From an uncultured Ruegeria sp. (GTDB lineage Bacteria; Pseudomonadota; Alphaproteobacteria; Rhodobacterales; Rhodobacteraceae), in NCBI RefSeq assembly GCF_947500045.1, contig NZ_CANMQQ010000001.1:62001-126000 (forward strand): a DNA stretch of 64,000 nt, written 5' to 3'. Positions 17,012 through 42,881 of this stretch are shown here, one piece after another. The notes under the pieces are model-generated. The model did no database searches. It was not told the origin of the DNA and worked only from the letters and a program-made list of their open reading frames with translations. Positions within the stretch are counted from its first letter, which is position 1. Each line of letters begins with the position of its first letter. A program made the translations under genes and the position numbers.

Positions 17012-17488
17012 TCAGGCACGATAAAACAGATACCGGCCCGGCGCGATCGTTTCAGGGCCCTGTATCTGAGAGAAGCATGTCAAAGGTTGCCCTGATATCA
17101 GCAACCCGCCAGGTCGCATAACCTGTGCGATCAGAGGGCTGAGGCGTGCCGCCTCTGCGACGTCTTCGGATTTGATCCCGCGACCGAAATCATAATGCGC
17201 CAGTGCAATTGTTCGCCCGGCTTCTGCCAATTTCCTCAGCATCGGTTCGGCCTCTCCCTGCAAGAAATCCTGAGCAGGGGGCCTGCTGTCCGGGTGGCAT
17301 TGCAATACCCGGTCCATTACCCAGATCCGACGTTGGGGCAGCATCTCGCGCAAATGGTCATAGGTGCGTCCGTTGCCCAGTCCTAGGTCCAGAACGTCTC
17401 CGTCCATGTTGTCGATCTGCGCGGCGGCCCAGTTCAGCCCGTCGCGTTGCGCGGTCAGGCGGCGCAGCATGGAATCCAGTCGACTCAT
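17012..17488 (-). CDS. Small class I SAM-dependent methyltransferase (Methyltransf_17-like)
   Basis: 158 residues. The SAM-binding loop is DLGLGNGRTYDHL (about 35-47), followed by WVMDR as the acidic ribose-binding strand. The gene at 33923 is a paralogue with the same LGLGNGRTY core and a similar ending. The start at 17488 has AAGGAGAGCCC upstream; the ORF track start adds unrelated codons. It is the last gene of the seven-gene glycan operon, 19 bases behind the deacetylase, so it may methylate the glycan or a precursor. The target is unknown. Confidence 0.75.
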   Translation of the reverse strand: MSRLDSMLRRLTAQRDGLNWAAAQIDNMDGDVLDLGLGNGRTYDHLREMLPQRRIWVMDRVLQCHPDSRPPAQDFLQGEAEPMLRKLAEAGRTIALAHYDFGRGIKSEDVAEAARLSPLIAQVMRPGGLLISGQPLTCFSQIQGPETIAPGRYLFYRA

Positions 17489-17507
17489 TCGGGCTCTCCT
17501 TGCGGGT

Positions 17508-18260
17508 TCAGTTGCGTGGCGCGGTCCAGGGCGTGCCCGGCCCTTCAAGCAGCCTGTGCAACAAGTCCTGTGTAAACGTCCAGATGTCCTGATCATGGAC
17601 CAGATGATGCGTCAACACCCCAAATGCTTCGGAATTGTCTGCCCGTCCGGTGCGTCGGTCTTGCAGCAGTGCAACTATTTGCGAAATCAGCTTTTCGGGG
17701 TCGACCAAACCGCGTGTTCCGCGCCAATCGATGGGGTCGAGATGCGTGTTTACCTGCTCGAGTCCGGGTGCCGCGAATACTGTTTTCCGGGGCGTTGCAG
17801 TCGACAGTATCCGATAGCCCAACCCGCTAAGTTTAGCTGCGACTTCAGGATCGATCCGGTTCCAAGGGGGCACGAATACCGGACGCAACCGATCACCAAA
17901 CAACCGCTGTAGCCCAGCCAGCCCCGCTGCGGCGTCGGAAACCACAGTTTCTATGGGCCTGTGCAGACGGAATTCAGCTTTCTTCTCGCCGGTTGGCGCG
18001 TGGTTTTGATGCGCCCAACCATGCACAACCGGGATTAGCGTTGGTTGATCTGACACATAATCCGCAAGTGACACCTCCGCCGCCTGGGGGATCACAGCCA
18101 GATGAACGGGCAAACCGAGCTCAACAGACATTGTGGTCAATTTTTCAAGCTGTGGTGTTACTGTGATCGCATCGTCGTCACGCCACCACAACGGCAACGT
18201 CAGCCCCGTGTCCTGCCAGCGCTGCAATTCGATCTGCAAGGGATACCAATTAAGGTTCAT
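17508..18260 (-). CDS. Polysaccharide deacetylase-like protein (NodB-fold)
   Basis: 250 residues. The likely metal and catalytic motifs are WWRDDDA (about 26), HGWAHQNH (about 80) and PPWNR (about 131), with LTHHLVHD near the C-terminus. These resemble the DD, HxxxH and RxPxxR-type motifs of carbohydrate esterase family 4. No signal peptide is visible, so it would act in the cytoplasm on an intracellular precursor. The ATG overlaps the stop of the upstream glycosyltransferase by four bases. Confidence 0.78.
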   Translation of the reverse strand: MNLNWYPLQIELQRWQDTGLTLPLWWRDDDAITVTPQLEKLTTMSVELGLPVHLAVIPQAAEVSLADYVSDQPTLIPVVHGWAHQNHAPTGEKKAEFRLHRPIETVVSDAAAGLAGLQRLFGDRLRPVFVPPWNRIDPEVAAKLSGLGYRILSTATPRKTVFAAPGLEQVNTHLDPIDWRGTRGLVDPEKLISQIVALLQDRRTGRADNSEAFGVLTHHLVHDQDIWTFTQDLLHRLLEGPGTPWTAPRN

Positions 18261-19399
18261 CGGCGGGCCTCGAACAATTCCGTTGCAATTTCTACCGAGC
18301 GGTGCGCGCCATTAAAACCTTCGGTCATAGGGGGCCGAACGGCACCCGACAGGGCACGGCCCAGCGCATTGGCCAATGTGGGTCCGGATAGGTCTGAACT
18401 GTTCAGCACCTCGATACCGTCCAAGTGCGAAAGCGCGCGCGCGCGCAATCCTTGCTCAACCTCCTGACCATCATCGAACGGGATCAGAACCGCCGGGGTA
18501 CCGCTTTGCAGCACATCCATGGCCGTGTTGTATCCGCACATACTGACCGAGGCTTCAACCAGTGGCAGCATCTGCCGAAAATCAGGCCGGACGGGTTCCA
18601 GAATGATTGATGCACCTTCGGCCAATTGCGAGAGCTTAGCAATCCGCGCTTTAGCATCCTGTCCACCCACCAACAGGCGCCAGCGCTTGTTGGGCATCTT
18701 GCGGGCGGCCTCGATGGCCGCCTGAAAGATCGGCTGGCCCACAGATCCGCCACCTGCGCTGACCACGATCTCACCTTGGCCAATACCGTCCGGATGATGT
18801 GGCGGCGCGGTTGGCGCGACGAAGCCGGTGTAGTGCAGGCGTGAAGCCAATTGAGGCGTGACAGGCCAGCTGACGCTTAGCGGCGTGATTTCAGGATCGG
18901 AATGGACCAGAACACCGTCATAATACTCTGCGATGATCTCATCTGCCTGAATTGCTTTTGCAGGTTTCGAGGGGGGTGCGAGAATATCACGGATCGAACT
19001 CAGGATGATCGATGGTTGAGGTAATTCTCGTGCGGCCTTCAGTGCAGCCCGAAACTCTGCGGCCAGAGAACGTCGCCCAAACGGATAGAGTTCGGTAATC
19101 AGAATCTGCGGCCCGAACCTGCGTATCGCCTGTGTCAGCCCGGTTGTGCGGGCGTCGAAATAGGCGGCGTCGGCAACTGCATCGTTCTGATCAAGCAGCC
19201 GGGTGAAATCAGTTCCATCCGACCGTAGCGGTGGCAAGCTCAGCAAAGTTAATCCGCTCGTGTCCAGCTGAGGGGCAGGCATACCGCCCGAGATCACAAG
19301 CACATCGTGGTTCTGCTCGGTGAACGCGCGTCCCAATATGAGAGCCCGGCTCAGATGACCGGTGCCCAACAGGTGGGTAACGACGATCATCACCTTCAT
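18257..19399 (-). CDS. GT-B glycosyltransferase, MurG/GT28-like
   Basis: 380 residues. The N-terminal Rossmann part opens VTHLLGTGHLSRALILGRAF, resembling the glycine-rich acceptor loop of MurG-like enzymes. The C-terminal part has VSAGGGSVGQPIFQ and CGYNTAMDVLQSGTPAVLIP, the donor-binding region of GT28_C domains. No membrane segment. It is the fifth gene of the operon and starts two bases after the phosphatase stop. It is distantly similar to the first gene of the operon. Confidence 0.78.
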   Translation of the reverse strand: MKVMIVVTHLLGTGHLSRALILGRAFTEQNHDVLVISGGMPAPQLDTSGLTLLSLPPLRSDGTDFTRLLDQNDAVADAAYFDARTTGLTQAIRRFGPQILITELYPFGRRSLAAEFRAALKAARELPQPSIILSSIRDILAPPSKPAKAIQADEIIAEYYDGVLVHSDPEITPLSVSWPVTPQLASRLHYTGFVAPTAPPHHPDGIGQGEIVVSAGGGSVGQPIFQAAIEAARKMPNKRWRLLVGGQDAKARIAKLSQLAEGASIILEPVRPDFRQMLPLVEASVSMCGYNTAMDVLQSGTPAVLIPFDDGQEVEQGLRARALSHLDGIEVLNSSDLSGPTLANALGRALSGAVRPPMTEGFNGAHRSVEIATELFEARR

Positions 19400-19401
19400 G
19401 A

Positions 19402-19980
19402 TCAGCCCTCACGCGCAACGAGGCGGATGGGTTCAGGTTCGGCCCGCATAGGGTCCAGTTCCAGAATAAATAACCTGTTGCGCTTGATCTTGAACGGGGC
19501 GGGGCCCGCAAAGTTCCATCCCCAGGCTTTGGCCAAAATCACGCGCATGATGCCGATATGGCAGACCGCCAGATTGTCGCCCTTCAGGTTGGTCAGCCAG
19601 GGCGCGAGTCTTGCCCAGATCTCGGCCGGGCTTTCGCCCTTAGGCGGCCGATAATCCCAACCCCATTCTTCGATATGACGATATCCACTGTCGGGGATTG
19701 CAATCAGATCTACGCCACGTTTGCCTTCCCATTCCCCCCAATTCATCTCGGTCAATGCATCAGACGTTTTGGGAGCTTGGCCAGACACCAGCTGGGCGGT
19801 TTCAGCGGCACGGCTCAGGGGGCTGGACCAGATTGATGCTGTGTCCCAAGGCGATGGCAGGCGATACCCCCCAAGCTCAGCGCGGGCTTCGGCATCCAAG
19901 GGTATGTCGCTGCGACCCTGAATGCGGCCTGCGCGGTTCCAATCTGTGTGTCCATGGCGCAAAAGGGCGAGGCGGCTCAT
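19402..19980 (-). CDS. Histidine phosphatase family protein
   Basis: 192 residues with the phosphohistidine motif LLRHGHTDWNRAGRIQGRSD at the N-terminus, the acid/base region EMNWGEWEG (about 79-87) and the second histidine in AVCHIGIMR. Such enzymes dephosphorylate small molecules, sugar phosphates or proteins. Lodged between glycosyltransferase genes with a four-base overlap on its 5' side, it probably acts on a glycan intermediate such as a sugar phosphate. The substrate cannot be deduced. Confidence 0.85.
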   Translation of the reverse strand: MSRLALLRHGHTDWNRAGRIQGRSDIPLDAEARAELGGYRLPSPWDTASIWSSPLSRAAETAQLVSGQAPKTSDALTEMNWGEWEGKRGVDLIAIPDSGYRHIEEWGWDYRPPKGESPAEIWARLAPWLTNLKGDNLAVCHIGIMRVILAKAWGWNFAGPAPFKIKRNRLFILELDPMRAEPEPIRLVAREG

Positions 19981-21053
19981 GATTTTTCCTCCAACAAGGG
20001 GCGAACGGCGGTCCAGAATTGTTCGGTAGCTGACGAGATTAAATGGCGTTGTGCGATGTATGCCCGGGCATGTTCGCCTTCAGACCGTCGCAGGGCAGGA
20101 TCGTCCAAATACATCTGTATGCGTGCAGCCAACGCTTTGGCACCCAACCCGACGCTTGGATGATCTGAGGGCATCAGCACGTCCCGCACGCCGGGGCGGT
20201 CTTGTGCTACGACCGGCACACCGCTGGCCTGAGCCTCAAGATAGACCATGCCATAGGCTTCGTTGACACCTGGCCAGACGAATATTGATGCTTGACGGTA
20301 GAGGGCCTGCAAAGCGCTTCGATCCAACTGGCCCAAAAACTGGACCCGGGCTCCGAACCGCGCCATCAGTTCTTCGACCTCTTGGCGGGCAGGGCCGTCG
20401 CCTGCTACGTCCAGCGCCCAATCCCCGGTCAGATGCTCTAACGTCTCGGCCAATATTGTGTACGAGGCCAGCTTGTCCCCCGGACGCATCATGCCCACGG
20501 TCAGCATCGCGCCATCGCGGGTCGAAACAGGGGGCAATTCGGCGACGGGCAGAAACGGAGGTAACTCCACCAATGACTGAGAGCTGAACCTTTCCCGCTC
20601 TAACGTGATCAGATCGTTGGCGGTGTGATAAAAAATCACCCGCGCTGTGTCGCAAGCGTGGTGAGCAGCATGGGCAAAGTCAGCCCATGGGCCCGAGAGC
20701 CGACTGGTGGCACGGGTGCTTTCCAGCTGGACATAGGGAATACCCCTTGCGCGGCTCACTTCGGGGCCCAACAGGTCAGGGGCCTTGTAGTAGTTGTGAT
20801 AGGTCACCCAAAGGTTGGTGTCCGGTGGCAGGTCCGAAATCAACCGCGCGGCCTCAACCTTTGCCTTTTGGCGCAACTCCTCCTGAAGGTCCTGGTCACC
20901 TGATTTGTCATAAATGCGCATTTGCGATGCGAGGTCGATACAATCACCCCGGGCACTGATCGCAGCGATCAGATTACGGGCCATTTCACGATCACCCGAA
21001 GGTTTTGAACTGTCGGGGGATTTCATCGGCGCGTAGAAAGCCACCCGGGTCAT
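19977..21053 (-). CDS. Glycosyltransferase family 4-like protein
   Basis: About 358 residues. The C-terminal donor domain has LTVGMMRPGDKLASY, VAGDGPARQEVEELM and the EX7E-type region YGMVYLEAQASGVPVVAQ (about 264-281). The N-terminal half starts VAFYAPMKSPDSSKPSGDRE, as in bacterial GT4 proteins. The ATG at 21053 overlaps the upstream stop; the ORF track start at 21071 lies inside the previous gene. Cytoplasmic, third gene of the operon. Confidence 0.85.
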   Translation of the reverse strand: MTRVAFYAPMKSPDSSKPSGDREMARNLIAAISARGDCIDLASQMRIYDKSGDQDLQEELRQKAKVEAARLISDLPPDTNLWVTYHNYYKAPDLLGPEVSRARGIPYVQLESTRATSRLSGPWADFAHAAHHACDTARVIFYHTANDLITLERERFSSQSLVELPPFLPVAELPPVSTRDGAMLTVGMMRPGDKLASYTILAETLEHLTGDWALDVAGDGPARQEVEELMARFGARVQFLGQLDRSALQALYRQASIFVWPGVNEAYGMVYLEAQASGVPVVAQDRPGVRDVLMPSDHPSVGLGAKALAARIQMYLDDPALRRSEGEHARAYIAQRHLISSATEQFWTAVRPLLEEKS

Positions 21054-22300
21054 CACAAGCCGTCCGCGCACAATGCGTTTAGCCGCTTGGACAGGCGGCG
21101 GATGCCGGGATCCATGCGAAAGTCAGCGATGAGCCGGTCAAATGCGGCCTCTGCCATCCCCGCGGTTCTGATCGGGTTCACGGCCATATCGGTAATTGCT
21201 GTGGCCAACGCGGACGGGTCGTCTGAGGCCAGAACTCCGTGGACGCTGGTTTCGATAAATTCCGGGATCGCCGATACAGGTGTTGACAGGATCGGAAGGC
21301 GCTGAGATGCCGCTTCCATCAAAACATTCGGCAAGCCGTCCCGGTCGCCATCTTCCGCAATCCGGCTTGGCAACACAAACAGATCGGCATTGCGCATTTC
21401 GGCAATGACTTCGGGCTGATCACACGCTCCCATCCATGTGATCCGCTCGGACAGACCTGCAGCGTCAGCTTGCGCACTCAACATTTTAGCCAAGTTTCCA
21501 CCGCCGATATGGGTCCAATGCCAGTTCAGGGTCTTGGGGAGACGTGCGAAAGCTTCAATAAGTCGGTCAAAGCCTTTCTTTTCAACCAAACGCCCGACCG
21601 AAAGCATGCGAAAGGGCGCATTTGTTGCACGTATGTTCCGTTCCGGCGGTGCAGGGAACCGGGACAGATCCAGCCCGTGATAGATCAACTCAACCCGCTC
21701 AGGATCGTCGGCCAAATCGCGTAGATGCGCGGCGCCAATGGCCGTGCAGGTTGCCCCGAAGGCAGCACCATGAGTGGCCAGTTGCAGTTTTTCCCGCTTT
21801 TCCCAATCTGGTGAGGTCCAGATATCCTTTGCGTGGGCCGAAAAGCTCCATGGCAGACCACGCATGATCGAGGCATAGCGCGCAACCGATGAGGGCGTGT
21901 GCATAAAGTGCGCATACAAGGCCTGAGTTTCCTGAGGCAGCTCTGCCGCCAGAACGCAGGCCTGACCAAACCGGCGGATGCGATTATGGCTTGGGTCTCG
22001 GCGAAGATCTTGCCGCCAGACGCGATAGGCGTCCCCGTACCCGGGCAAGCGAGATGCGATGGTGCGCGCGGCAGCAATCCGTTCAGGTTCTTCGAACAGG
22101 TATTCCGGCAGATAATGCACCTGCCCGTTAAAGCGATCGTGCAACGGATGTCGCTTTGTATCGGTCGGGTGGCGCAGTGACCAGATATCGAAGCTGTGCC
22201 CAGCCTCCTGCAAGGCCACTAATTCCTGCGCTATGAACGTCTCGGACAGGCGCGGCCAGCCTTTGACCAGCACCGCTAACTTGGGGGCTGCAGATGTCAT
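21053..22300 (-). CDS. Glycosyltransferase family 4 protein (WaaG/ExoL-like)
   Basis: 415 residues. The N-terminus GWPRLSETFIAQELVALQ is the SETF motif of GT4 enzymes such as colanic-acid-type glycosyltransferases. The donor half has LSVGRLVEKKGFDRLIEAF and DGLPNVLMEAASQRLPILST. Second gene of the operon, overlapping its upstream neighbour by four bases and its downstream neighbour by one. Confidence 0.88.
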   Translation of the reverse strand: MTSAAPKLAVLVKGWPRLSETFIAQELVALQEAGHSFDIWSLRHPTDTKRHPLHDRFNGQVHYLPEYLFEEPERIAAARTIASRLPGYGDAYRVWRQDLRRDPSHNRIRRFGQACVLAAELPQETQALYAHFMHTPSSVARYASIMRGLPWSFSAHAKDIWTSPDWEKREKLQLATHGAAFGATCTAIGAAHLRDLADDPERVELIYHGLDLSRFPAPPERNIRATNAPFRMLSVGRLVEKKGFDRLIEAFARLPKTLNWHWTHIGGGNLAKMLSAQADAAGLSERITWMGACDQPEVIAEMRNADLFVLPSRIAEDGDRDGLPNVLMEAASQRLPILSTPVSAIPEFIETSVHGVLASDDPSALATAITDMAVNPIRTAGMAEAAFDRLIADFRMDPGIRRLSKRLNALCADGL

Positions 22301-23511
22301 CCGGTGGCGCGCTCTTGTTCTGCGCCCAGCAGTGCATTGATGCGGTGGGTGACGTAGTTCAGCCCGTCCAGCAACCCGGCGCGAATCGCCTGTGAGGGCA
22401 ATGGCTGATGAGGAAGGTTACGGATCGCGCGGATCATAGAGTCTGCTGTCAGGCCGTCGCGGTTTTCATCCAGCATTTGCACCAGCCCCAGATCCTCGGC
22501 GCGTGAGGCGCGAATCCACTGTTCCAACCGCGGCGTCGTCCGCGGGACAATCACGGCGCGCTTATCAAAGGACAGAACCTCGCAAAAGGTGTTGTAGCCG
22601 CCCATGCAGACAACACCGGCCGCTCCGGCGAACAGAGTTTCAATCTGGGATTCAAAGCCAACGGCGGTAACCCGACCATTCAGCGCGGCAACCCGTGTCT
22701 CAAAATCTTCGCGCAGTTCTCCTGACAGGAAAGGCCCGTAGACCAGAACCGCACGCGGCGATAGGTCTGGGTCTTTCTCATAAGCAGACAACACAAGATT
22801 AACCATCGCTTTGCCATCACCACCGCCACCGGGGGTGATCAGGATATAGGGTTGTTCGGGCGGTTCGCCGATAGGCCCCAGATCTCGCCGCAGATACCCC
22901 GTCCAATGAATACGTTGCTGCGTCGCCGGGCTGAGCGGCAGGCCTTGCGTCGGGTCGTAGACGGACCGCAGCCCATACACCCATATCTCATCATAGAACC
23001 GCTCGGTCGCGGCGATGGCTTCTTTGCGTTTCCATTCGGCGGCCAGAACGTCGGGCTCATCCAGAACATCGCGCAAGCCCAGTATCAGCTTGGTGGAACA
23101 TGAGTTTTCAAGATATTCAAGCGTCGGCAGCAGTTCGCCACGAAATCCGGTTGGTTCTTTGTCGACGATCAGAACATCAGGGTCGAATTGCTCAACTGCT
23201 GTCTGAATTAGGCTTGAACGCAGCTCGGTCACGTCGTCGATTCCCATACCGATGGTCTGCGAGGCATATGAGCCATCTGCACGCTTGGTGACACCGGGCA
23301 GGCGAACGTGGTCGACCCGGTGCGGGAACGTGAACCGGCCTGCCACGGGCGAGCCGGTCAGAATCAAAGCCGAGGCACGCTGATCAGCTTGAGTAATGGC
23401 GGCAGCCAGAGCCCGAGACCGGCGCAAATGACCCAGACCGAACGTGTCGTGACTGTAGAGCAAGATGCGAGGCGCGCGGCCGTGATGTTCGTTTTTGTTA
23501 CCTAGGCTCAT
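22297..23511 (-). CDS. GT-B glycosyltransferase, GT28-like, first gene of glycan operon
   Basis: 404 residues. DTFGLGHLRRSRALAAAI forms the N-terminal glycine-rich loop, ITPGGGGDGKAM the interdomain loop, and CMGGYNTFCEVLSFDKRAVI the GT28-type donor site. A conserved helix region ILGLRDVLDEPDVLAAEWKR precedes it. It is soluble, with no signal or membrane segment. It heads a chain of seven genes in which most junctions overlap by one to four bases, which indicates a dedicated pathway. The donor and acceptor are unknown. Confidence 0.78.
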   Translation of the reverse strand: MSLGNKNEHHGRAPRILLYSHDTFGLGHLRRSRALAAAITQADQRASALILTGSPVAGRFTFPHRVDHVRLPGVTKRADGSYASQTIGMGIDDVTELRSSLIQTAVEQFDPDVLIVDKEPTGFRGELLPTLEYLENSCSTKLILGLRDVLDEPDVLAAEWKRKEAIAATERFYDEIWVYGLRSVYDPTQGLPLSPATQQRIHWTGYLRRDLGPIGEPPEQPYILITPGGGGDGKAMVNLVLSAYEKDPDLSPRAVLVYGPFLSGELREDFETRVAALNGRVTAVGFESQIETLFAGAAGVVCMGGYNTFCEVLSFDKRAVIVPRTTPRLEQWIRASRAEDLGLVQMLDENRDGLTADSMIRAIRNLPHQPLPSQAIRAGLLDGLNYVTHRINALLGAEQERATG

Positions 23512-26468: not shown

Positions 26469-27824
26469 TTAGGTGGACAACGACGGCCATACAGGCCTTG
26501 ACGTTCCCAGCTTTGAGGCGGGCAGCGGCCATTGCATCTTGGCAGGCCCGACGGTCAGAGCCGGTTTCAGCCGGTACCCTGTCCCCCAACCGGATTGTTC
26601 AGACGCATCCGAATAATCGGTGGGTATCGCCCCGGTGATATCTTCACCAGTATCGCGCTTGGCGAGGGTGGCTAGTAACTCGGCAGTCCGTGCCAGCGAG
26701 AGCCGGGCGTCCATGACAGCCTGTCCGGATGCGGCCTCAGCCAGGGCTGATAGGACGGCGGCGGCCATCAGGTATCCGGTCGCGTGATCCAAGGCCTGCA
26801 CGGGCAGCGGCGTCGGCTTGTCAGCCCCCGCCCATTCCATTCCAGCATGCGCGATCCCGGCGCTCATCTGCACCAGACTATCAAAGCCGCGTCGCGTCGC
26901 CCAAGGTCCTTGCCAACCATAGGCGTCAAGCGTGACTTCAACCCTGTTGGGCGCAAGCTGATCGCGCGTTGCCTTGTCCAGACCAAGCGCATCCAGCGCA
27001 CCGGGGCGGTATCCATGGACAAGTACATCCGCCTGCTTCAGCAGCTCTTGAAGTTGTTCTTTTCCGTCGGATGACTTCAGGTTCAGATAAGCGCAGTGTT
27101 TGCCCAATGAGATGTCGGGGATGACGCCGGGCTCGTCCCATTCGGGTGGATCGATCCTCAGGACTTCGGCGCCAAAACCTGCGAGTGTTCTTGTGGAAAC
27201 CGGTCCGGCCAGAATACGGGTCAGGTCAAGTACGCGCAGTCCAGCAAGAGGGCGCGCGGCGGTTGCCTGAGGCCGGTCGCGCAACTTGATATTGCGTGGG
27301 CCCTGCCACCCGATCAACGGTTCGCGCGCCAGTACGCGCCCTTGCGGATGGTCTTGCCATTCCGAGCGGCTGCGCATAGCGGCGGCGACGCCCCCTTCGG
27401 CGACAATCGCAGCTTCCAGACCAGCAATGGGCCAATCTCGGATGGCGCGTTCCACCAACGGCCTATCAGGTTTGACCTGCAACACCTTCAAGGCTGCAGC
27501 ACGATGATGAGGCAGGTTGGTGTGCAGCCTGATCCACCCATCGGAGGCCTGATAATCGCCTGCAATCGCGTCCCAAAGGCTGGGCATGTCCCACCCTTCA
27601 GGTTTGAACGAAAAGCCATACCATAGTGACGCCAATCGATGATCCACAGAAATTTCCGGCGATTCTGGCGACAGATTCAGGGCAATCACGAAGCGTGAAA
27701 GTTCCTTTCCGACCGCTGCAAAGCTGGCTGTTGCCAGTTCCGAGACCGCAAATGCGCTGGGTCGCGCACCCGCCCCGTTGACCAGATATGTGTCAGGTGA
27801 GGGGAGGGCGGACAGCAAGCTCAT
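26469..27824 (-). CDS. CaiB/BaiF (type III) CoA transferase with N-terminal extension
   Basis: 451 residues. The family core LAGLRVLDLTRILAGPVSTR, normally near the N-terminus, appears only at about residue 193. The candidate catalytic aspartate is in VQALDHATGYLM near 360. About 190 residues precede the core and have composition similar to part of the same fold, so the domain order looks rearranged. It moves CoA between carboxylic acids. The ATG overlaps the stop of the upstream ABC permease by four bases, which links the enzyme to the imported substrate. Confidence 0.82.
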   Translation of the reverse strand: MSLLSALPSPDTYLVNGAGARPSAFAVSELATASFAAVGKELSRFVIALNLSPESPEISVDHRLASLWYGFSFKPEGWDMPSLWDAIAGDYQASDGWIRLHTNLPHHRAAALKVLQVKPDRPLVERAIRDWPIAGLEAAIVAEGGVAAAMRSRSEWQDHPQGRVLAREPLIGWQGPRNIKLRDRPQATAARPLAGLRVLDLTRILAGPVSTRTLAGFGAEVLRIDPPEWDEPGVIPDISLGKHCAYLNLKSSDGKEQLQELLKQADVLVHGYRPGALDALGLDKATRDQLAPNRVEVTLDAYGWQGPWATRRGFDSLVQMSAGIAHAGMEWAGADKPTPLPVQALDHATGYLMAAAVLSALAEAASGQAVMDARLSLARTAELLATLAKRDTGEDITGAIPTDYSDASEQSGWGTGYRLKPALTVGPAKMQWPLPASKLGTSRPVWPSLST

Positions 27825-28975
27825 TGCTGGTAGGGGTCCAGACTGTCACGCAGCCCGTCGCCAAGGAAGTTGAAGGCCAGCACGATGACGATGATCGGCA
27901 ACATCGGGATAGCGGTCCAGGGATAGATTTCGATCGAGGCGAGGTTCTGCGCGTCATTCAGCATCACCCCCCAGCTGACGGCCGGGGCCCGCAGGCCGAG
28001 GCCAAGAAAACTGAGCGCTGTTTCACCGAGGATCATCGCGGGTATCGACAGCGAGGCCGAAGCAATCAAATGAGACATGAAGTTGGGTAGCAGGTGCTTG
28101 CGGATAACACGGCCCGAACTTGCGCCCATCATCTCTGCCGCACGAACGTATTCCTCTTCCCGTAGGGACAGGAACTTTGCGCGTACTGATCGGGCAAGAC
28201 CGGGCCAATCCAGAATGCCGAGGATGATTGAGATGATGAAGAACACCGCAACGGGGCTCCAATTCGACGGCACGGCTGCGGACAAAGCCAGCCAGAGAGG
28301 CAATTCCGGCAGAGAACGCAGAATTTCGATCACGCGGTTGATGACCCAGTCGATACGCCCTCCGAAATATCCGGCGATCGATCCGAAAAGGATACCAAGG
28401 AAGAATGATACCGAGATGCCGATCAGGCCCACCGTCAGCGATAGTTGTGCGCCATAGAGAATTCGGCTGAATACGTCACGGCCCAAACGGTCTGACCCCC
28501 AGAGGAAAAGGGTGGCGCCTTCGGGCGCGCAGAACAGATGGGTGTCTGACCTGATCAGGCCTGCCAGCTTGTATTCTGATCCTTCACAGAAGAACCGGAT
28601 CGGGCGCGGATCATCCGTGTCTGGCGCGAATTTCCATTGGAAGGTCTCAAGGTCCGCTTCCGCGACGATAGGATAGACATAGGGGCCGATGAATTCACCC
28701 TCATGGAACCAGTTGACCGACTGGGGCGGGGCATAAAGATGCTCTCCGTTCCGGTCATTTGGGCCATAGGGGGCGATGAAACCCGCAAAGGGTAGCATCA
28801 CATAGCAAAGCAGCAGGAAGATGCCCGAGATCAGGCCCAGCTTGTGTGTTCTGAACTTGCGCCAAACCAAGACCCAATTGGGGGCATCAAGATCTGCACG
28901 CTCAAGCTGTTGGATCGAGGCTTGCGGATCGAATGGGGCTTCGTCGACATAGCGACCATCGGGGCGTTTGCTCAT
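27821..28975 (-). CDS. ABC transporter permease, OppC/YejE type
   Basis: 384 residues. An N-terminal cytoplasmic stretch and first helix are followed by a periplasmic loop of about 100 residues, then five helices with the permease motif EYVRAAEMMGASSGRVIRKH (EAA loop, about 270). It pairs with the OppB-type permease, overlapping it by four bases. It imports peptides or other organic solutes, energised by the fused ATPase at the head of the operon. Confidence 0.9.
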   Translation of the reverse strand: MSKRPDGRYVDEAPFDPQASIQQLERADLDAPNWVLVWRKFRTHKLGLISGIFLLLCYVMLPFAGFIAPYGPNDRNGEHLYAPPQSVNWFHEGEFIGPYVYPIVAEADLETFQWKFAPDTDDPRPIRFFCEGSEYKLAGLIRSDTHLFCAPEGATLFLWGSDRLGRDVFSRILYGAQLSLTVGLIGISVSFFLGILFGSIAGYFGGRIDWVINRVIEILRSLPELPLWLALSAAVPSNWSPVAVFFIISIILGILDWPGLARSVRAKFLSLREEEYVRAAEMMGASSGRVIRKHLLPNFMSHLIASASLSIPAMILGETALSFLGLGLRAPAVSWGVMLNDAQNLASIEIYPWTAIPMLPIIVIVLAFNFLGDGLRDSLDPYQQ

Positions 28976-30000
28976 GCTTCTCGCCCCTCATAACGGATGC
29001 GCGGGTCGAGCATGACCAGCAAGATGTCGGAAATCATAGTGCCGATCAGGGTCAGCAAAGCCACGAACATAAGAATGAACGCCGAGAGGAATTGGTCTTG
29101 TGTTTTGAGCGCCGTCAACAGGGTTGGCCCAATGGTCTGCAGACCCAAAACGACTGAGACCAGAACCGATCCCGAAACCATGGAAGGCAGCAGGTTACCA
29201 ATGTCGGCAACAAAGGGGTTGAAGGCCACACGCAGCGGATATTTTGTCAGCATGCGCGAGGGGGCCATCCCTTTGGCGATGGCGGTTTCCACATAAGGTT
29301 TACCCAGCTCATCCAGCATATTGGCGCGCAGGCGTTGCATCATGGCAGATGCGCCTGAGGTGCCGATCACAAAGGTTGGTACGATCAGGTGAACAAGGAT
29401 GGATTTCAACTTGTCCCAGCTCATCGGTTCCCCTTCAAAAGAAGGGTCCATCAAGCCGCCGATGGGTAGATTGAAATAGCGATGGCCGTAGTAGAAAAGG
29501 ATCAGTGCCAGCAGGAAGTTTGGCGTAGCGAGCCCAAGATATCCGACAAAGGCTGACGTATAGTCGATCCAGGTCCGTGATTTTGCCGCTGCGAGGACGC
29601 CGAGTGGCAAAGCGACGGCATAGACGAACAGGATGGCTGCCAGATTGACGACCACCGTCAGCCAGAGTGTATCACCGACGATTTCCGCGACAGGACGGTC
29701 AAATTCGAAGGACCATCCGTAATTGCCCTGCAATAAGCCTTCGAACCCGTGTGGGCCGGGCCAGAAGCCTGCCCAGATCAGATATTGTTCCGGCAAAGAA
29801 CGGTCCAGAGAATACTCTTTGCGCAGAAACTCGGCTTTGGCGACACCTGCGGACTGACCCGAGGCCTGCAACTCGGCGATCTGGTTGCTAAGGTAATCAC
29901 CTGGGGGAAGGTTGATGATCACGAAAACCATGACCGACACCACCAATAGTGTCAGCAGCATCGTGAAAAAGCGATACACCGCATAGCGCAGCATTACCAT
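28972..30000 (-). CDS. ABC transporter permease, OppB/YejB type
   Basis: 342 residues with six hydrophobic segments. A periplasmic loop contains LPEQYLIWAGFWPGPHGFEG and the EAA-like loop is near PYVETAIAKGMAPSRML (about 226). AGGAG seven bases before the ATG supports the start. It is 14 bases downstream of the binding protein and overlaps the second permease. Confidence 0.9.
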   Translation of the reverse strand: MVMLRYAVYRFFTMLLTLLVVSVMVFVIINLPPGDYLSNQIAELQASGQSAGVAKAEFLRKEYSLDRSLPEQYLIWAGFWPGPHGFEGLLQGNYGWSFEFDRPVAEIVGDTLWLTVVVNLAAILFVYAVALPLGVLAAAKSRTWIDYTSAFVGYLGLATPNFLLALILFYYGHRYFNLPIGGLMDPSFEGEPMSWDKLKSILVHLIVPTFVIGTSGASAMMQRLRANMLDELGKPYVETAIAKGMAPSRMLTKYPLRVAFNPFVADIGNLLPSMVSGSVLVSVVLGLQTIGPTLLTALKTQDQFLSAFILMFVALLTLIGTMISDILLVMLDPRIRYEGREA

Positions 30001-30014
30001 TTAGCTGCTCCTGC

Positions 30015-31928
30015 TCAGTCGGCGAAGAAGAACTCGTCCGGACGGTGAATGCCGAAATGTGCGCCAGGCTCCCACGCCCACATCGCCTGCTCGGGTACGT
30101 TGCGCAGGCGGTTCGACACCACGATCGGTTGCGGTGCGCCGTTCAGAATACCTATGGCATACAGCTGATCCGCATGGATCTTCAGCATCTCGGTCCAGAC
30201 AGCAGCGCGTTCGTCATCCGTTGTGGCGACTTCCCAATCATGGGCCAGCTTCATGAGAAGTTCGGCCTCGGGCATGTCTGGCGGCTCACCCGAGCCTCCA
30301 TTGGTCTGATAATACTGGCCCCATTTCGGCCAAGACAAAAAGACCTGATCAGTGGGGGCAAGATAAGCAGGTGAAGTATGCATCTGCGGGATGCCGTCAT
30401 CCCAGCCGAACCAGACCGATGCCATGGTATTCCCCGAAAATACGCGGTTACGCAGAATGTCCCGGTCCAATGGTCGCATCACAAGGTCGACCCCGATTTC
30501 ACGCCAGGTATCAGTGACGATCTGAAGGGCGTTTTCTACCTCTTGCCGTTCGCCGGCGGTTTCGATGACCAATTCCATCGGGCGACCGTCGGGCAAAAGG
30601 CGAACGCCGTCTCGGTCGCGCTCGGTCAATCCGGCCTCGTCCAGAAGTGCATTAGCCATGTCGACATCATATTCCGCCCACGCTTTTGCATTTGCTTCGT
30701 CATAGAAAGGCGACGTCGGCAGAACTGACATCGCGCCGGGATGAGCAAGCTTGAAATAAAGCGCCTGATTGATCGTTTTGCGGTCAATCGCTAGCGAAAG
30801 AGCCCTGCGGACACGAACATCGCGCAGTATGTTGCGCCAAGCCTCATCTTCAAAATTCAGGTTGGGATAGATAGCGATTTGTGACGCGACACCGGTTTTC
30901 CACAAAAGCGTTTTGTAGCCGCCCTCAGCCTCACCTTTTTTCAGGATCGAAGCGTCGCGGAATGCCAGCCCGCGCCCCTGCAAATCGCTCTCGCCCGCGT
31001 TGGTCTTGGCCGCAACGAGGCCTGGGGCCACGATCTCCATCTCGACCACATCGATATAGGGCAATTGCACTCCGTTTGAATCGACCCTGTGGTAGTAAGG
31101 GTTACGGATGAAACCGTACCGGATTTTCTTACCCGAACTGGCATTGAACCAAGGCTGCAATGTGGGCAGTTCGTGATTGTCGTACTTATAAAGGTTATCC
31201 AGTTTGTTGTGCAGCGCCGCCCAGCTTTTGACTCGGGCATCTTCGACATGGAATGCTAATTCTTCAGGGTCGGCAAACTTCTCATGGTATTTTTTGAGGA
31301 ATTCGGACGGGCGGTAGATAAAGGGTGGGCGCGCCTGGGCGAGCGATTGCAGAAAGTCGGGGTTCGGATTTTCCCACTCAAACATAATCGTCGTTTCATC
31401 GGGGAAGGAAACCGTAGGCGGCTTGCCTTCAACCAGTAGAAAATCTGGTGGGCCTGAGGGGCTGAGCAATTCGTTATTTGCTACGTCCTCCCACCAATAG
31501 CGGAAATCCTCGGACGTAAATGGAGTGCCGTCCGACCATTTGTGGCCGGGACGCAGGTTCAGAGTGAACTTGCGATTGTCCTCATTTTCAAATGAGGCCA
31601 GCAAATCGGGTACGATGTCATAGTCGTGATCAAACCCCACAAGACGCGCGTAGCCATAGACCACCATCTGACGAATGTCCTTGGACCGGGTGACCATTGT
31701 GCGCAGTGTTCCACCGGGCGTCCCGAAATCGCGCCCCTTTGCCGCCAGATCAACGATCAGAGGCTCTTGCGGGATGCGTTCGGCGATTGGTGGCAAGCCG
31801 CCGCTCTCAACCTCAGCTTCCCAATAGGGGGTTTCCTGAAGATTGGCAGGGATTTCTGCCGTGGCGGGCAGCCCTGATATGGTGACCAGTGCGGCCGCCA
31901 GAAACATACGATGAGTGGTCTTAAACAT
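30015..31928 (-). CDS. ABC transporter substrate-binding protein, SBP family 5 (large)
   Basis: 637 residues, longer than most oligopeptide-binding proteins (about 530) and close to YejA/AgaA-type proteins. The signal peptide ends near ATA/EIP (about residue 25). Family 5 features include FTLNLRPGHKWSDGTPFTSE (about 130) and RALSLAIDRKTINQALYF (about 385). The ligand is not deducible. Its first eight bases overlap the end of the ATPase gene. Confidence 0.9.
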   Translation of the reverse strand: MFKTTHRMFLAAALVTISGLPATAEIPANLQETPYWEAEVESGGLPPIAERIPQEPLIVDLAAKGRDFGTPGGTLRTMVTRSKDIRQMVVYGYARLVGFDHDYDIVPDLLASFENEDNRKFTLNLRPGHKWSDGTPFTSEDFRYWWEDVANNELLSPSGPPDFLLVEGKPPTVSFPDETTIMFEWENPNPDFLQSLAQARPPFIYRPSEFLKKYHEKFADPEELAFHVEDARVKSWAALHNKLDNLYKYDNHELPTLQPWFNASSGKKIRYGFIRNPYYHRVDSNGVQLPYIDVVEMEIVAPGLVAAKTNAGESDLQGRGLAFRDASILKKGEAEGGYKTLLWKTGVASQIAIYPNLNFEDEAWRNILRDVRVRRALSLAIDRKTINQALYFKLAHPGAMSVLPTSPFYDEANAKAWAEYDVDMANALLDEAGLTERDRDGVRLLPDGRPMELVIETAGERQEVENALQIVTDTWREIGVDLVMRPLDRDILRNRVFSGNTMASVWFGWDDGIPQMHTSPAYLAPTDQVFLSWPKWGQYYQTNGGSGEPPDMPEAELLMKLAHDWEVATTDDERAAVWTEMLKIHADQLYAIGILNGAPQPIVVSNRLRNVPEQAMWAWEPGAHFGIHRPDEFFFAD

Positions 31929-33693
31929 GGCAACGTACCTTATGGCCGGGCTCCAATTCTACCAACGAGGGTATCACGGAGTCGGAAAATCGAAAGGCAT
32001 CATCCCAACTGTCGGGTGAACCAGCACCCAACGCAACCAGTTTCAGGTCAATCGGGCGATTGATATCCGGTTCCGGTTGGGCGGCGATCAATGCCTTGGT
32101 GTAGGGATGACGTGGATTGTAGAACAGGGTTTCGGGCGGGGCTTGTTCGACCACAAGGCCCCGGCGCATAACGGCAACTTCGTCGGCGATGCGCGCGACA
32201 ACTGCCAGATCGTGCGAGATGAACAGATAAGACAGGTTCAGACTGTCCTGCAGGTTTTCGAGCAGGGTCAGAATCTGCTCCTGAACGGATACATCCAAGG
32301 CCGAGGTTGGTTCGTCACAAACGATCAAGGCAGGGTCCAGCATCATTGCCCGCGCGATTGACAGGCGCTGCCGCTGCCCGCCTGAAAACGCATGTGGATA
32401 GCGTTTGAGCATATCCTCATTCAGTCCGACCCGCTGCAACATCTCGGCCGCTTTATCACGCTGCTCGGATACGTTGCCGAGGCGATGAATCTCCAACGGC
32501 TCGGTCATAGCATCCTGAATGCGCATTCGAGGGCTGAGAGAGCTATAGGGATCCTGAAACACCATCTGTGCTTTGCGCTGAAAAGCGGTGCGTTCAGCAC
32601 GTGTCATGTGGTGAACCGTTATCGGTTCGGAGTCTTTGGTCGTTCGGAACAGAACTTTACCGCCGGGGTCTGGAAGTTCAGCGCCCAGAGCGATCCGTGC
32701 CGCTGTGGTTTTGCCCGATCCGCTTTCACCTACAATCGCAAGAGTTTTACCGCGCGCAAGTTTCATATCAACGCCCCGGCAGGCGTGTATCAGTTTTTCC
32801 GCCTTCCAGCCTTTGCTGGACCGCATTGTATAGGTTTTAGACACATCGGTCATCTGCAGGATCAGGTCTTCGTCAGGCATAGGTATGCCGACCGAATCCT
32901 GATCGGGTATCTCGGGTGCCGCGTCGAATAGTTGCTGGGTATAAGGATGCGCCGGTTCATTCAGGATAAGCGCGGCCGGACCGGCTTCCATCACGCGGCC
33001 CTTGTGCATGACAACGACATGCTCGGCCATGTTGGCGACCACACCAAGATCATGGGTGACCAGGATCAGCGCCATGCCGGTTTCGCGCTGCAGTTCTTTG
33101 ATCAGCCCAAGAACCTGCGCTTGGGTAGTCACGTCCAGCGCCGTCGTGGGCTCGTCAGCAATCAGCAGTTCAGGTTTCGCAACCATCGCCATGGCGATCA
33201 TCGCGCGCTGGCGCATGCCGCCGGACAATTCGAACGGATAACTGTCATAGGCGCGGGCCGGGTCAGGGAAGCCGACCCTCTCGAACTGGGTCAGAACCTC
33301 TTTGCGTGCCTCTGAATCGGACGCACCGCGATGCAGCCACAGAACTTCGCTGACCTGATTTCCGATCTTGTGGAGCGGAGACAGAGACCGCATCGGCTCC
33401 TGAAAGATCATCGAGACACGATTGCCGCGAATGCTACGCATCTGGCGTTCGCTGAGCTTCATCAGATCAGCCGCGCCGTGGGAATCGTTCAATGTAATCG
33501 TACCGCTACGAATCTGAGCGGTGCGCGGCAGAATACGCAGTGCAGCCCGACATGATATCGTTTTGCCCGACCCGGATTCTCCGACCAATGCTAGTGTCTG
33601 CCCTGGTTCGACATCAAAGCTGACGTCACGGACAACAGATGGGCCCGAGCCGAAGCCGATGCTGAGATCCCGAACGGACAACAACGCACTCAT
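31921..33693 (-). CDS. Fused double ABC ATPase (OppD-OppF / YejF type)
   Basis: 590 residues with two complete ATPase domains. The first has Walker A GESGSGKT (38-45), LSGGMRQR and a DEPTTALD Walker B. The second has GESGSGKTT (about 325), [15 protein letters not shown] and CDEPTSALD. It energises the two permeases downstream. It is first in the operon, facing the methyltransferase gene at 33923 across a 229-base promoter region in which I saw no conclusive operator. Confidence 0.95.
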
Positions 33694-33922: not shown

Positions 33923-34420
33923 GTGCCGGAAGCTCAAAGTCGTCTAGATTTGTTCATCGACCGCATGGTCTCGCAGCGCACCTGTCTGGATTATGCAATC
34001 GCGCAGACGACAGGACAGCCCGGTCCGGTTTTTGAGCTGGGGCTGGGCAATGGGCGCACGTATCATCACATGGTTCAGCATATTCAGGATCGCCCCGTAT
34101 ATGTTTTTGAACGTGCGGTAGCCTCGCATCCCGATTCAACCCCGCCCAATGATCTTGTGATTCTGGGCGATGTGCGCGAGACGCTGCCCGCATCGGTCGC
34201 GCGATTTGGCGCGTCGGCCAGCCTGATCCATGCTGATCTGGGTGGGCATAACCGGCAAAAGAACGATGCGTTTGCGCGCCTTGTCTCACCGTTGATCGAG
34301 CCGCTTTTGGCGCAAGGTGGGCTGATGGTTTCGAGCGATCGTATGTATTTCGAACAACTGACCGAGCTGCCGCTGCCAGAAAGCGCGGTTGAGGGGCGCT
34401 GTTTCATTTATCAACGCTGA
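33923..34420 (+). CDS. Small class I SAM-dependent methyltransferase, paralogue of the 17012 gene
   Basis: 165 residues from a GTG with AGGGG nine bases upstream. The SAM loop FELGLGNGRTYHHM (about 37-50) and VYVFERAVASHPDSTPP closely parallel the gene at 17012 (DLGLGNGRTYDHL, WVMDRVLQCHPDSRPP). The ends also match in pattern (GRCFIYQR versus GRYLFYRA). It stands alone between an ABC operon and a GST gene. Substrate unknown; the GTG start is reasonable but unproven. Confidence 0.72.
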   Translation: MPEAQSRLDLFIDRMVSQRTCLDYAIAQTTGQPGPVFELGLGNGRTYHHMVQHIQDRPVYVFERAVASHPDSTPPNDLVILGDVRETLPASVARFGASASLIHADLGGHNRQKNDAFARLVSPLIEPLLAQGGLMVSSDRMYFEQLTELPLPESAVEGRCFIYQR

Positions 34421-39781: not shown

Positions 39782-39923
39782 GTCGAGGGATACGATCGCG
39801 GTAAATTCGTCCCGTTGTATTCACGCCAAAATCAGTAAACTGAGTGGCGGATCACTAGTAGGGGCGGGTTCAATCGAGCGCACTATATTTCGGTTTATCT
39901 GGAAATACTCAAAACGCGACCAG

Positions 39924-42881
39924 TTGATTCTTCTGGCCGTGACGGCAACGCTTTTTCCGTTGCTCTATCTGACGCTGGAACTGCCCAAGCGCATAATCAA
40001 TGATGCGATCGGCGCCACCAGCCAGATAGTCGATGTCTGGGGATACAGCCTGCCGCAGACCACATTCCTGATGATCCTGTGTTTTGCCTTTTTGGTTGCG
40101 GTGCTGGCGCATGGCTTGATGAAGATGCGCATCAATACCATGAAAGGCGTTCTGAGCGAACGAATGCTGCGCCGCCTCCGCTATCTGTTGATCAACCGCG
40201 CGCTTAGATTTCCGCAGCCTTATTTTGAGCGGGTGAGTCAGGGCGAAATGGTGTCGATGATCACCGCCGAAAGTGAGCCCATGGGCGGGCTGATGGGGGA
40301 CGCGATCAGTCAGCCTGTGCTGCAAGCCGGGCAGATGATCACGATCCTGTCCTTCCTGTTCCTGCAAAGTGTGTGGTTTGGATTGGCTGCCGTTGCGTTG
40401 ATCCCGTTGCAGGCATGGCTGATCCCGCGCCTGCAGCGTCAGATCAATCTTTTGAATAAGCAGCGCATCCAAGAGGTGCGCGTGCTGGCCGCGCAGATTG
40501 GCGAGAATGCAGCCGGGGCCTCAACCCTACGTGCCAACGGTGGTTGGCGGTATCGTCGGGCGATGATTTCGGATCAGTTGGGGCGGCTGTTCGCAATTCG
40601 GTTCGATATTTACCAGAAGAAGTTCTTTATGAAGTTCATCAACAACTTCATATCGCAACTTACGCCGTTCATGTTCTACTTGGTGGGCGGACTTCTGGTG
40701 CTGCAAGGCTCAGTTTCACTTGGGGCACTCGTGGCTGCGCTGGCGGCTTATAAAGACCTGAGTTCGCCCTGGAAGGAATTGCTGACCTACTACAATCAGA
40801 CGCAGGACATGTCGCTGAGATGGGACGTTGTGATCGAGCGTTTCGCGCCGGATGGCATGATTGATGAAAAACTGTTCGAGGGAGAGCCAGCAGAGCGCCC
40901 CCAACTGAACGGGGACATTGTCCTGGATAGGGTTTCGGTTCGCGATATCGACGGCAATCAGGTGTTGGACGATCTGAACCTGACGTTCCCTGCGGGTCGG
41001 ACCATCGGTATCTCTGCTACCAGCGAAGAAGACCGCAACGCGTTGACTGAATTGCTGACCCGAGAGATCGTGCCAACCTCGGGCCGGATTGAAGTTGGCG
41101 GCATCAACATGGCCGACCTGCATCAAGGCGTTGTTGCCGCGCGAATAGGTTTGGCAACCTCTCGCCCGGTGATGTTTCAGGGTACTTTGGGCGAAAACGT
41201 GATGATGCCGATGCGGTCTCGACCCTTGTCAGCGTCAACAGAAGACCCGGATTTTCCGGAAACTATACGTGCTGGTAACAGCGCCGATCCTTTCGACGTC
41301 GAATGGGTTGATCCCGGACTGGCCGGTTTTGATGATACGGCCCGATTGCGCGACTGGTGGCTGCAATTGATCGACGGCATGGGCTCGGGTGCGGCGCTGT
41401 TTCAGCGCGGGGCTGAACAGGCCTTTGATCCGAATGAACACCCAGACCTGGCAGCCAAACTGATCGAGCTGCGACCGTTGGTACAAAAGGAAGTACAAAA
41501 GGCTGGCCTGACCGAGCAGGCGTTGGTTTTTGATCGTTTAGCTTACAATCCGGCACTCCCGGTTGCTGAAAACCTCTTGTTTGCGACGCCCTGTGTGCCG
41601 GTCACGCGGCAATTTCTGGCACAGCAGACTGTTTTTCTTGGCCAGTTGCGAGAATTGGGGTTGGATGAAACGTTGGTCAGCCTGACACGCGACGTGATTG
41701 AATTGCTGCGCCAGATCTTTGGGCTGGATGGGACCGATCACCCCCTATTTCGCAAACTTGGGTTAGAGGCCCAAACCTACGAGGCGGCGGTTGAACTGGT
41801 CGAGCAAACCCGCAAGGAAGGCGCGCGCGGACTTGATGACGAGCAATTGGCCAGCTTGTTGTCGGTACCGTTTGTGATCTCTGCAGAACAAATTGGCCCA
41901 GCGTTTTCAGATGAGCTTAAGAACCGTATTCTTGAGCTGCGCCACAGCCATTCCGACAAACTGCTGGAACCTTTGCACGATGTTTTTGTGCCCTTGGACG
42001 AGAACGCGTTTGCACCCGGTCTGACGGTCATGGAAAACGCGTTGTTCGGCAAGGTCAGCCAGATTGGCGGTGCGCGGACCGATGAAGCGCGCAAGAAGAT
42101 CGTCGATGTGCTGGCCGAAAATGGCGCGCGCCCGATGGTGGTCGAGCTGATCTATGATGTACCAGTCTCGCTTGGTGGTCAGAATCTTCCAGCCGTATTT
42201 GCGGAACCGTTGGCCTTTACCCGCGCGACGATCAAGAAGCCCGATATTCTGATCCTGGAAACCGCACTTGCCAGCTATGACATGGAGACACAGGTCGCCG
42301 TGTACAAGAATTTGCGTGAATTGCTGCCCGAAACCACGGTAATCTACCTGAATGACACGTTCGAGAATCCAGATGTTTTCGACATGTATGTTGAAATCCG
42401 TCAGGGCCGGGTGGTGACAGGCGAAGGTCCAACCGACGTCGAAGGTGACGGCGCGGCGTCTGCCGATCTTGTGCGCAAATTACGTGCGCTGGAGCAAACA
42501 CCGTTGTTCTCTGGTCTGGACCGCCGCCAGCTTCGCCTGCTGGCTTTCGGTGCACGCTGGTTCGAGGCCAAACCGGGCCAGGTCGTATTTCTCAAGGACG
42601 ATCAGCCGACCGATGGGGCCTATGTCGTTCTCGAGGGAGAAGCAGGCCTTTACTTGCCGCGTTCGGGTGAGGCCGACCAACTTATTGCAACCGTTGGTGC
42701 CGGTGCGCTGGTGGGCGAGCTGGGGTTGATCCGTAAAGAACCCCGGGCGTTGAGCATGGTTGCGGAAACCGAGTTGTCTTGCCTGCGTATCGGTGAAGAA
42801 GAATTTCTGGCGGTGGTCGAGAATGACGCTGCCACGGCCTTCAAACTGCTGCAGGTGATCGCGGGCTACGTCTCGAACTGA
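39924..42881 (+). CDS. ABC-exporter-like protein with dead ATPase domain and C-terminal cNMP-binding domain
   Basis: 985 residues from the first canonical start (TTG). An exporter-type membrane domain (1-300) is followed by an NBD-like domain from about 330. The Walker A site reads ISATSEEDRNAL with no GK(S/T). The Q-loop region is ATSRPVMFQG without its glutamine. About 330 extra residues come before a signature-like SLGGQNLPAVF (about 747). Walker B ends ILILETA instead of LDE, and the H-loop has no histidine (IYLNDT). A cyclic-nucleotide-binding-like domain (852-985, VVLEGEAGLYL, GALVGELGLIRKEPRAL) closes it. Coding-like sequence continues upstream of the TTG without ATG or GTG. Confidence 0.82.
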   Translation: MILLAVTATLFPLLYLTLELPKRIINDAIGATSQIVDVWGYSLPQTTFLMILCFAFLVAVLAHGLMKMRINTMKGVLSERMLRRLRYLLINRALRFPQPYFERVSQGEMVSMITAESEPMGGLMGDAISQPVLQAGQMITILSFLFLQSVWFGLAAVALIPLQAWLIPRLQRQINLLNKQRIQEVRVLAAQIGENAAGASTLRANGGWRYRRAMISDQLGRLFAIRFDIYQKKFFMKFINNFISQLTPFMFYLVGGLLVLQGSVSLGALVAALAAYKDLSSPWKELLTYYNQTQDMSLRWDVVIERFAPDGMIDEKLFEGEPAERPQLNGDIVLDRVSVRDIDGNQVLDDLNLTFPAGRTIGISATSEEDRNALTELLTREIVPTSGRIEVGGINMADLHQGVVAARIGLATSRPVMFQGTLGENVMMPMRSRPLSASTEDPDFPETIRAGNSADPFDVEWVDPGLAGFDDTARLRDWWLQLIDGMGSGAALFQRGAEQAFDPNEHPDLAAKLIELRPLVQKEVQKAGLTEQALVFDRLAYNPALPVAENLLFATPCVPVTRQFLAQQTVFLGQLRELGLDETLVSLTRDVIELLRQIFGLDGTDHPLFRKLGLEAQTYEAAVELVEQTRKEGARGLDDEQLASLLSVPFVISAEQIGPAFSDELKNRILELRHSHSDKLLEPLHDVFVPLDENAFAPGLTVMENALFGKVSQIGGARTDEARKKIVDVLAENGARPMVVELIYDVPVSLGGQNLPAVFAEPLAFTRATIKKPDILILETALASYDMETQVAVYKNLRELLPETTVIYLNDTFENPDVFDMYVEIRQGRVVTGEGPTDVEGDGAASADLVRKLRALEQTPLFSGLDRRQLRLLAFGARWFEAKPGQVVFLKDDQPTDGAYVVLEGEAGLYLPRSGEADQLIATVGAGALVGELGLIRKEPRALSMVAETELSCLRIGEEEFLAVVENDAATAFKLLQVIAGYVSN

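Follow-up and report, generated by a model that had tools for sequence, protein, structure and literature searches.

An ABC-exporter-like protein family with a dead ATPase domain, an insert and a cyclic-nucleotide-binding domain, linked to a glycosyltransferase and peptide-importer module in Alphaproteobacteria

Introduction

What can an ABC-exporter-like protein do when its nucleotide-binding domain (NBD) has lost the residues of catalysis? This question is raised by a gene in a 64,000-nucleotide stretch of DNA from an uncultured Ruegeria sp., which is called the window here. The original prediction, made from the letters of the window, described an intact membrane domain, a catalytically dead ATPase domain, a large insertion and a C-terminal cyclic-nucleotide-binding-like domain, and suggested that the loss of catalytic residues was selected. 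We call this protein, encoded at 39873..42881 (+), ABC*; it is ABC-exporter-like and combines a dead NBD with an insert and a cyclic-nucleotide-binding domain (CNBD).

Results

Domain layout and ATPase motifs of ABC*

The ABC* gene consists of 1002 codons plus stop. Residues 1-330 make up an exporter-type transmembrane domain (TMD; 39873..40862, +), residues 345-447 and 746-850 the N-terminal (40905..41213, +) and C-terminal (42108..42422, +) halves of the NBD, residues 448-745 the insert and residues 870-1002 the CNBD. In Pfam, ABC_membrane (PF00664) scored 63.6 bits against a cut-off of 28 and cNMP_binding (PF00027) 58.4 bits against 27.5, which bears out both the intact membrane domain and the C-terminal domain of the original prediction; ABC_tran (PF00005) reached 13 bits, below its cut-off of 25. 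AlphaFold2 modelled the full chain with a mean pLDDT of 74.5, and the best fold matches of this model were type I (ABCB-like) bacterial ABC exporters. Since parts of the TMD are weak in this model, it supports the domain order, not a mechanism.

Each of the catalytic positions described as lost is indeed changed. In the N-terminal half of the NBD, the Walker A equivalent (41010-41045) reads ISATSEEDRNAL and lacks GxxGxGK[ST], and the Q-loop position, within 41154-41213, is S. In the C-terminal half, the expected signature-like motif is present as GGQNLPAVF, Walker B reads ILILET (D to E; catalytic E to T) and the H-loop position is D. In group A, the window gene's own branch in Rhodobacteraceae, some of these altered positions are conserved in turn, D387 and R388 in the former P-loop being invariant, for example; the site in the NBD was thus reshaped and not simply lost.

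Translation probably starts at a conserved isoleucine codon

The reading frame had been described as intact over 985 codons from TTG at 39924. The frame is open and intact; its extent is larger. TTG 39924 was rejected as the start, because both the open frame and the conserved protein sequence extend upstream as far as ATC at 39873..39875 (+). Homologues have IER[ST][IL]FxFIWKYSKRDQ in common, the first residue of which is encoded at window position 39873. At this codon, 100 group-A genes have ATA (76), ATC (22) or ATG (2), so that 98 of them have ATA or ATC, and 60 contain no ATG, GTG or TTG from the upstream stop to the Ile codon. In 80 group-A genes, the share of ATA was 79% at codon 1 versus 3.5% over later Ile codons, an enrichment of more than 20-fold, and it was at most 8% in each of the other conserved Ile columns. 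Among 50 non-redundant group-A genes, G was found at -11 in 50 and at -10 in 49, which makes a Shine-Dalgarno site suitably spaced from the Ile codon, and CC was preferred at -2/-1. Apart from this GG and CC, nucleotide conservation drops upstream of the Ile codon in these 50 genes, and no protein conservation was found there. In the window, the Shine-Dalgarno core (39862..39864, +; -11 to -9 from the start) lies inside a GGGGCGGG stretch.

From the ATA enrichment, the conserved GG, the frequent absence of a canonical start and the loss of conservation upstream, the start is most likely AUC in the window gene and AUA in most relatives, which would give ABC* 1002 residues. The possibility that this Ile codon is internal to a gene starting farther upstream was rejected for the family, because most genes offer no canonical codon there, ATA is strongly enriched and the upstream conservation consists only of the Shine-Dalgarno site and two bases. 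The conserved AUA/AUC start of group A, seen in the window and in loci L001-L080, was missed by gene callers; the RefSeq start of the Ruegeria sp. TM1040 orthologue is codon 18, that is, 17 codons late.

The ABC* gene is under purifying selection

Orthologues in many genera are 66-94% identical and have invariant residues over the whole length of ABC*, a degree of conservation well above chance. Median pairwise dN/dS, calculated from 30 close genes (the window gene and 29 relatives), was 0.035 for the TMD, 0.088 for the N half of the NBD, 0.078 for the insert, 0.050 for the C half of the NBD and 0.036 for the CNBD; the TMD and the CNBD are thus the most constrained parts. Because dN/dS is 0.035-0.09 in all domains, the ABC* gene is functional and under purifying selection. 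The missing catalytic motifs and the lack of a canonical start codon are what a decaying pseudogene might display. However, the frames of close orthologues are intact, dN/dS is below 0.1 in each domain and the Ile start is conserved together with its GG, so the pseudogene reading has practically no probability left, and decay or a sequencing error was rejected by this comparison.

A dead NBD characterizes the family

Members of the ABC* family, which carry generic names in annotated records, were present in 59 of 190 genomes in the class sample (Alphaproteobacteria). In the phylum sample the family was found in 24 of 349 genomes, all but one of the same class; the single exception is a TMD-only protein. 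One member is carried by pSymB of S. meliloti.

Six catalytic residues were scored by alignment: Walker A K and S/T, Q-loop Q, Walker B D, catalytic E and H-loop H. None of 86 members keeps all six, and the best (L099, L110, L133 and L179) keep four. The comparison of Walker A and H-loop among homologues, which had been proposed with the original prediction, gave a Walker A lysine in 33, the following Ser/Thr in 4 and the H-loop His in 18 of the 67 outgroup members, which are those outside Rhodobacteraceae; the Walker B Asp is kept by 11, the catalytic Glu by 31 and the signature Gln by most of them. Group A keeps none or one of the six, so the complete residue set of a functional ABC ATPase is not found there; group A and the Rhodobacteraceae paralogues have lost the glycines of the P-loop, its lysine and the whole signature motif. 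In the tree, 19 Rhodobacteraceae rows fall on one side of a branch with support of 100. The uneven survival of these residues, together with the tree, indicates that erosion of the NBD is old, uneven across lineages and most complete in Rhodobacteraceae. By the same alignment, the dead NBD is a trait of the family and not a lesion of the window copy. Homologues with an intact Walker A, with only the window copy degenerate, had been named as the sign of a decaying gene, and this pattern was not found. Selection for the catalytic loss, as originally suggested, is supported by a loss common to all sampled homologues, low dN/dS and intact frames.

Some outgroup members (L110 and L099) have kept the lysine of Walker A, the Glu of Walker B and the His of the H-loop, so that ATP binding or slow turnover is possible in them. 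It may be asked whether the NBDs of ABC* in general still bind ATP with no or very slow hydrolysis, and whether ATP binding, jointly with a cyclic nucleotide, is what drives or gates ABC*, in the manner of the degenerate sites of asymmetric ABC exporters. Half of the outgroup keeps the Walker A lysine, most keep the signature Gln, and degenerate sites elsewhere bind nucleotide and have a structural role (PMC7756269). However, the P-loop glycines, lysine and signature motif are missing altogether from group A and the Rhodobacteraceae paralogues, and we consider this reading unlikely.

A second copy (group B, about 52% identity) was found in each of the 19 Ruegeria genomes searched. It is equally dead, and its start codon is ATG in those read. 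One canonical site per dimer is therefore not found in Ruegeria, where both family paralogues are dead, and an active partner within the family was rejected; the original suggestion of a partner of an active half-transporter found no support there. ABC* could instead pair with an unrelated, active half-exporter whose gene lies elsewhere, in the way of exporters that have one canonical site; other ABC exporters are present in the genome. This is very improbable, since no active half-exporter is recurrently linked in the mapped loci and the sole close paralogue is also dead.

The group-B paralogue L089:8184-11276 (52% identity, ATG start, dead NBD) precedes CPBP-protease-like, accD and folC genes, an arrangement that recurs in Ruegeria. 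One Rhodobacteraceae genome (G172) has a third, divergent copy (L154) of 44% identity. TMD-only relatives with an extra N-terminal stretch were seen at L096 (6601-7818), L155/L228 and L180, the one at L096 being among genes that look copper-resistance-like by eye. TMD-only relatives were rejected as a widespread clade, for they are rare (1 of 190 class genomes).

The insert

The original prediction placed about 330 extra residues within the NBD. The insert is real; its length is about 300 residues (41214..42107, +). Structure prediction, which had been recommended for this protein, modelled the insert alone with confidence (AlphaFold2 pLDDT 86, pTM 0.76), and Foldseek found no solved PDB structure with E below 0.6, the best E being 0.63. 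Two copies of a unit of about 50 residues, r2 (41442..41591, +) and r3 (41910..42059, +), were recognized by profile comparison. In outgroup members the two units, which end in ENLLFG, matched each other with E 1e-19 and a probability of 99, and the unit resembled the segment after the Q-loop with a probability of 92-93 over 18-23 columns. From these profiles we infer that a duplicated Q-loop/helical segment of the NBD itself probably gave rise to the insert.

The CNBD and cyclic nucleotides

The CNBD (42480..42878, +) aligns with PKA regulatory subunits. In known CNBDs, a conserved Glu and a conserved Arg contact the cyclic nucleotide. ABC* keeps both in its phosphate-binding cassette, as E949 and R958, which are invariant in group A.

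A stand-alone CNBD gene, overlooked in the original prediction, lies directly downstream of ABC* in 57 of 67 outgroup loci, usually less than 200 nt away, and in 6 of the 67 it overlaps or is fused to ABC*. In Rhodobacteraceae, the fused CNBD is the counterpart of this separate gene. In 7 of 19 group-A loci, ABC* is preceded by genes for a giant PKD-repeat protein and a HAMP-type class III nucleotide cyclase, as at L079:681-7355. Class III cyclase genes also occur at the Rhizobium leguminosarum locus and, in L127 and L129, in the vicinity of ABC*. Cyclases adjoin ABC* at a minority of loci only, and none was found within the window. The adjacency of cyclase, CNBD and ABC* in separate lineages suggests that the ligand of the CNBD is a cyclic nucleotide (cNMP).

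A glycosyltransferase and peptide-importer module linked to ABC*

The window also contains a module that was overlooked when it was first read. A compact cluster at 17015-23511, all on the reverse strand, encodes four glycosyltransferases, a histidine phosphatase, a methyltransferase and an unclassified protein. These are a GT28-like glycosyltransferase (22300..23511), two GT4 glycosyltransferases (21056..22300 and 19980..21071), the histidine phosphatase (19405..19980), a second GT28-like glycosyltransferase (18260..19399), a conserved protein that is deacetylase-like by eye and has no Pfam or NCBIfam match (17511..18260) and a Methyltransf_17 SAM methyltransferase (17015..17596). They are followed by a Yej/Opp-like peptide importer (27824..33693, -) with two permeases, a binding protein (30018-31928) and an ATPase (31924-33693), by a second Methyltransf_17 protein (33923..34420, +) and by ABC* at 39873. 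The same order was found on the megaplasmid of TM1040. An MscS-type mechanosensitive channel of 799 residues (23882-26278) is encoded divergently from the glycan cluster, and it occupies the same place in TM1040.

In the window, 16 kb and several unrelated genes separate ABC* from the glycosyltransferase. At many outgroup loci, ABC* adjoins genes for GT28-like and GT4 glycosyltransferases, the histidine phosphatase, the deacetylase-like protein, Methyltransf_17 and the peptide importer. On R. leguminosarum pRle248d, cyclase, importer, three glycosyltransferases, ABC* and CNBD are consecutive on one strand, and the Azospirillum lipoferum locus has methyltransferase, ABC*, importer, glycosyltransferases and phosphatase.

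Co-occurrence was counted in the 190 class genomes. ABC* and the GT28-like glycosyltransferase occurred together in 56 genomes, ABC* alone in 3, the glycosyltransferase alone in 1 and neither in 130; thus 56 of the 60 genomes with either had both (Fisher 2.7e-43, with phylogeny ignored and genomes from many families). For ABC* and the importer binding protein the corresponding counts were 55, 4, 3 and 128 (Fisher 4.5e-39, phylogeny ignored), and all three genes were present in 54 of the 62 genomes with any of them. Counted within the family, 31 genomes had both ABC* and the glycosyltransferase, 0 ABC* only, 8 the glycosyltransferase only and 111 neither. Of the 56 ABC*-glycosyltransferase pairs, 39 are within 5 kb, 7 are farther apart on one contig and 10 are on different contigs. 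The immediate neighbour gene of ABC* (42909-44138), used as a control, overlapped with ABC* in 15 of 64 genomes, a Jaccard index of 0.23 versus 0.93 for the glycosyltransferase. Inspection of neighbours in other genomes, as the original prediction had advised, revealed a module that recurs and co-occurs with ABC*.

Because glycosyltransferase linkage is strict, and because the motor was lost while a CNBD and an insert were gained, ABC* might be a cNMP-sensing membrane receptor or scaffold that holds or switches the glycosyltransferases and transports nothing. The membrane domain, however, is the most conserved part of the protein and TMD-only relatives exist, which suggests that a membrane pathway matters; we regard a mere scaffold as rather improbable.

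Discussion

The reading that we prefer, with a probability of roughly 0.57, is that ABC* would be a selected, non-hydrolytic, cNMP-controlled derivative of an ABC exporter and a core part of an alphaproteobacterial module for surface glycans and peptide uptake, made up of glycosyltransferases, a phosphatase, methyltransferases and a peptide importer. The original idea of a nucleotide-gated or ATP-independent membrane protein would be compatible with the observations. Two ABC* chains are assumed to form an exporter-like dimer, in which the NBDs and the insert would form a platform for structure and regulation and would no longer work as a motor. On binding cAMP or cGMP, the CNBD would switch the membrane domain from one state to another and thereby control whether a glycan or glycolipid made by the neighbouring enzymes passes or is flipped. 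The cargo would most likely be a product or intermediate of the linked glycan enzymes, and a membrane gradient or synthesis itself may provide the driving force. A fuller picture is tentative: ABC* may be an ATP-independent, cNMP-gated transporter or flippase, in which an exporter fold has lost its motor and gained a new regulatory fold within the NBD, which stands at the core of a second-messenger-controlled glycan/peptide module and whose translation is set by an AUA start.

ABC* resembles the type I (ABCB-like) exporters MsbA, TmrAB and PCAT1 in its PF00664 membrane domain and in the order of TMD and NBD. Among these, only ABC* has no functional catalytic site, and only ABC* has a 300-residue insert, a CNBD and a link to glycosyltransferases and an importer. 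Selected loss of catalytic residues is also known from TM287/288, TmrAB, ABCB11 and CFTR, which have one degenerate site (PMC7756269). These proteins keep one canonical site, whereas no sampled member of the ABC* family has one. Cyclic-nucleotide-gated channels and PKA regulatory subunits share with ABC* a CNBD whose phosphate-binding cassette has the conserved Glu and Arg, whereas the membrane part of ABC* is an ABC exporter domain and not a channel or a kinase partner.

The peptide/H+ symporters SbmA/BacA (SLiPT) have the exporter-type membrane-domain fold and are a precedent for an exporter-type domain without an ATPase. Their transport uses the proton gradient (PMC10128002). However, SbmA/BacA have no NBD and belong to a different sequence family, whereas ABC* has a CNBD and still carries its dead NBD; the Pfam family of SbmA/BacA was absent from the Pfam matches of ABC* up to E 1.

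Rare start codons are evolutionarily kept in infC (AUU/AUC) and in Streptomyces sigR (GTC), both of which are controlled by IF3; the non-canonical start in sigR is repressed by IF3 (PMC5472188). The start of ABC* is likewise a rare codon kept over evolution, whereas here AUA dominates and the gene encodes a Rhodobacteraceae membrane protein. By analogy, the start of ABC* may be under IF3 control, and the AUA/AUC start of the Rhodobacteraceae group-A copy, presumably disfavoured by IF3, would keep the protein level low.

A literature search, largely confined to papers outside subscription journals, found no description of the ABC* family or its module and no account of conserved AUA starts. That ABC* belongs to a hitherto undescribed system, as first proposed, is therefore likely as far as the literature searched is concerned. 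New in ABC* are the family-wide dead motor, the insert without a known fold, the CNBD and the linked module, while its base is a derivative of an ABC exporter.

In conclusion, a whole exporter family without a working ATPase would directly test transport or signalling without ATP hydrolysis. The module ties cyclic-nucleotide signalling to a conserved, undescribed set of genes in many families of Alphaproteobacteria, among them those of rhizobia and marine roseobacters, which makes it accessible in laboratory strains. The conserved AUA/AUC start is a rare natural case for the study of start-codon selection, and it exposes the misplacement of starts by gene callers.
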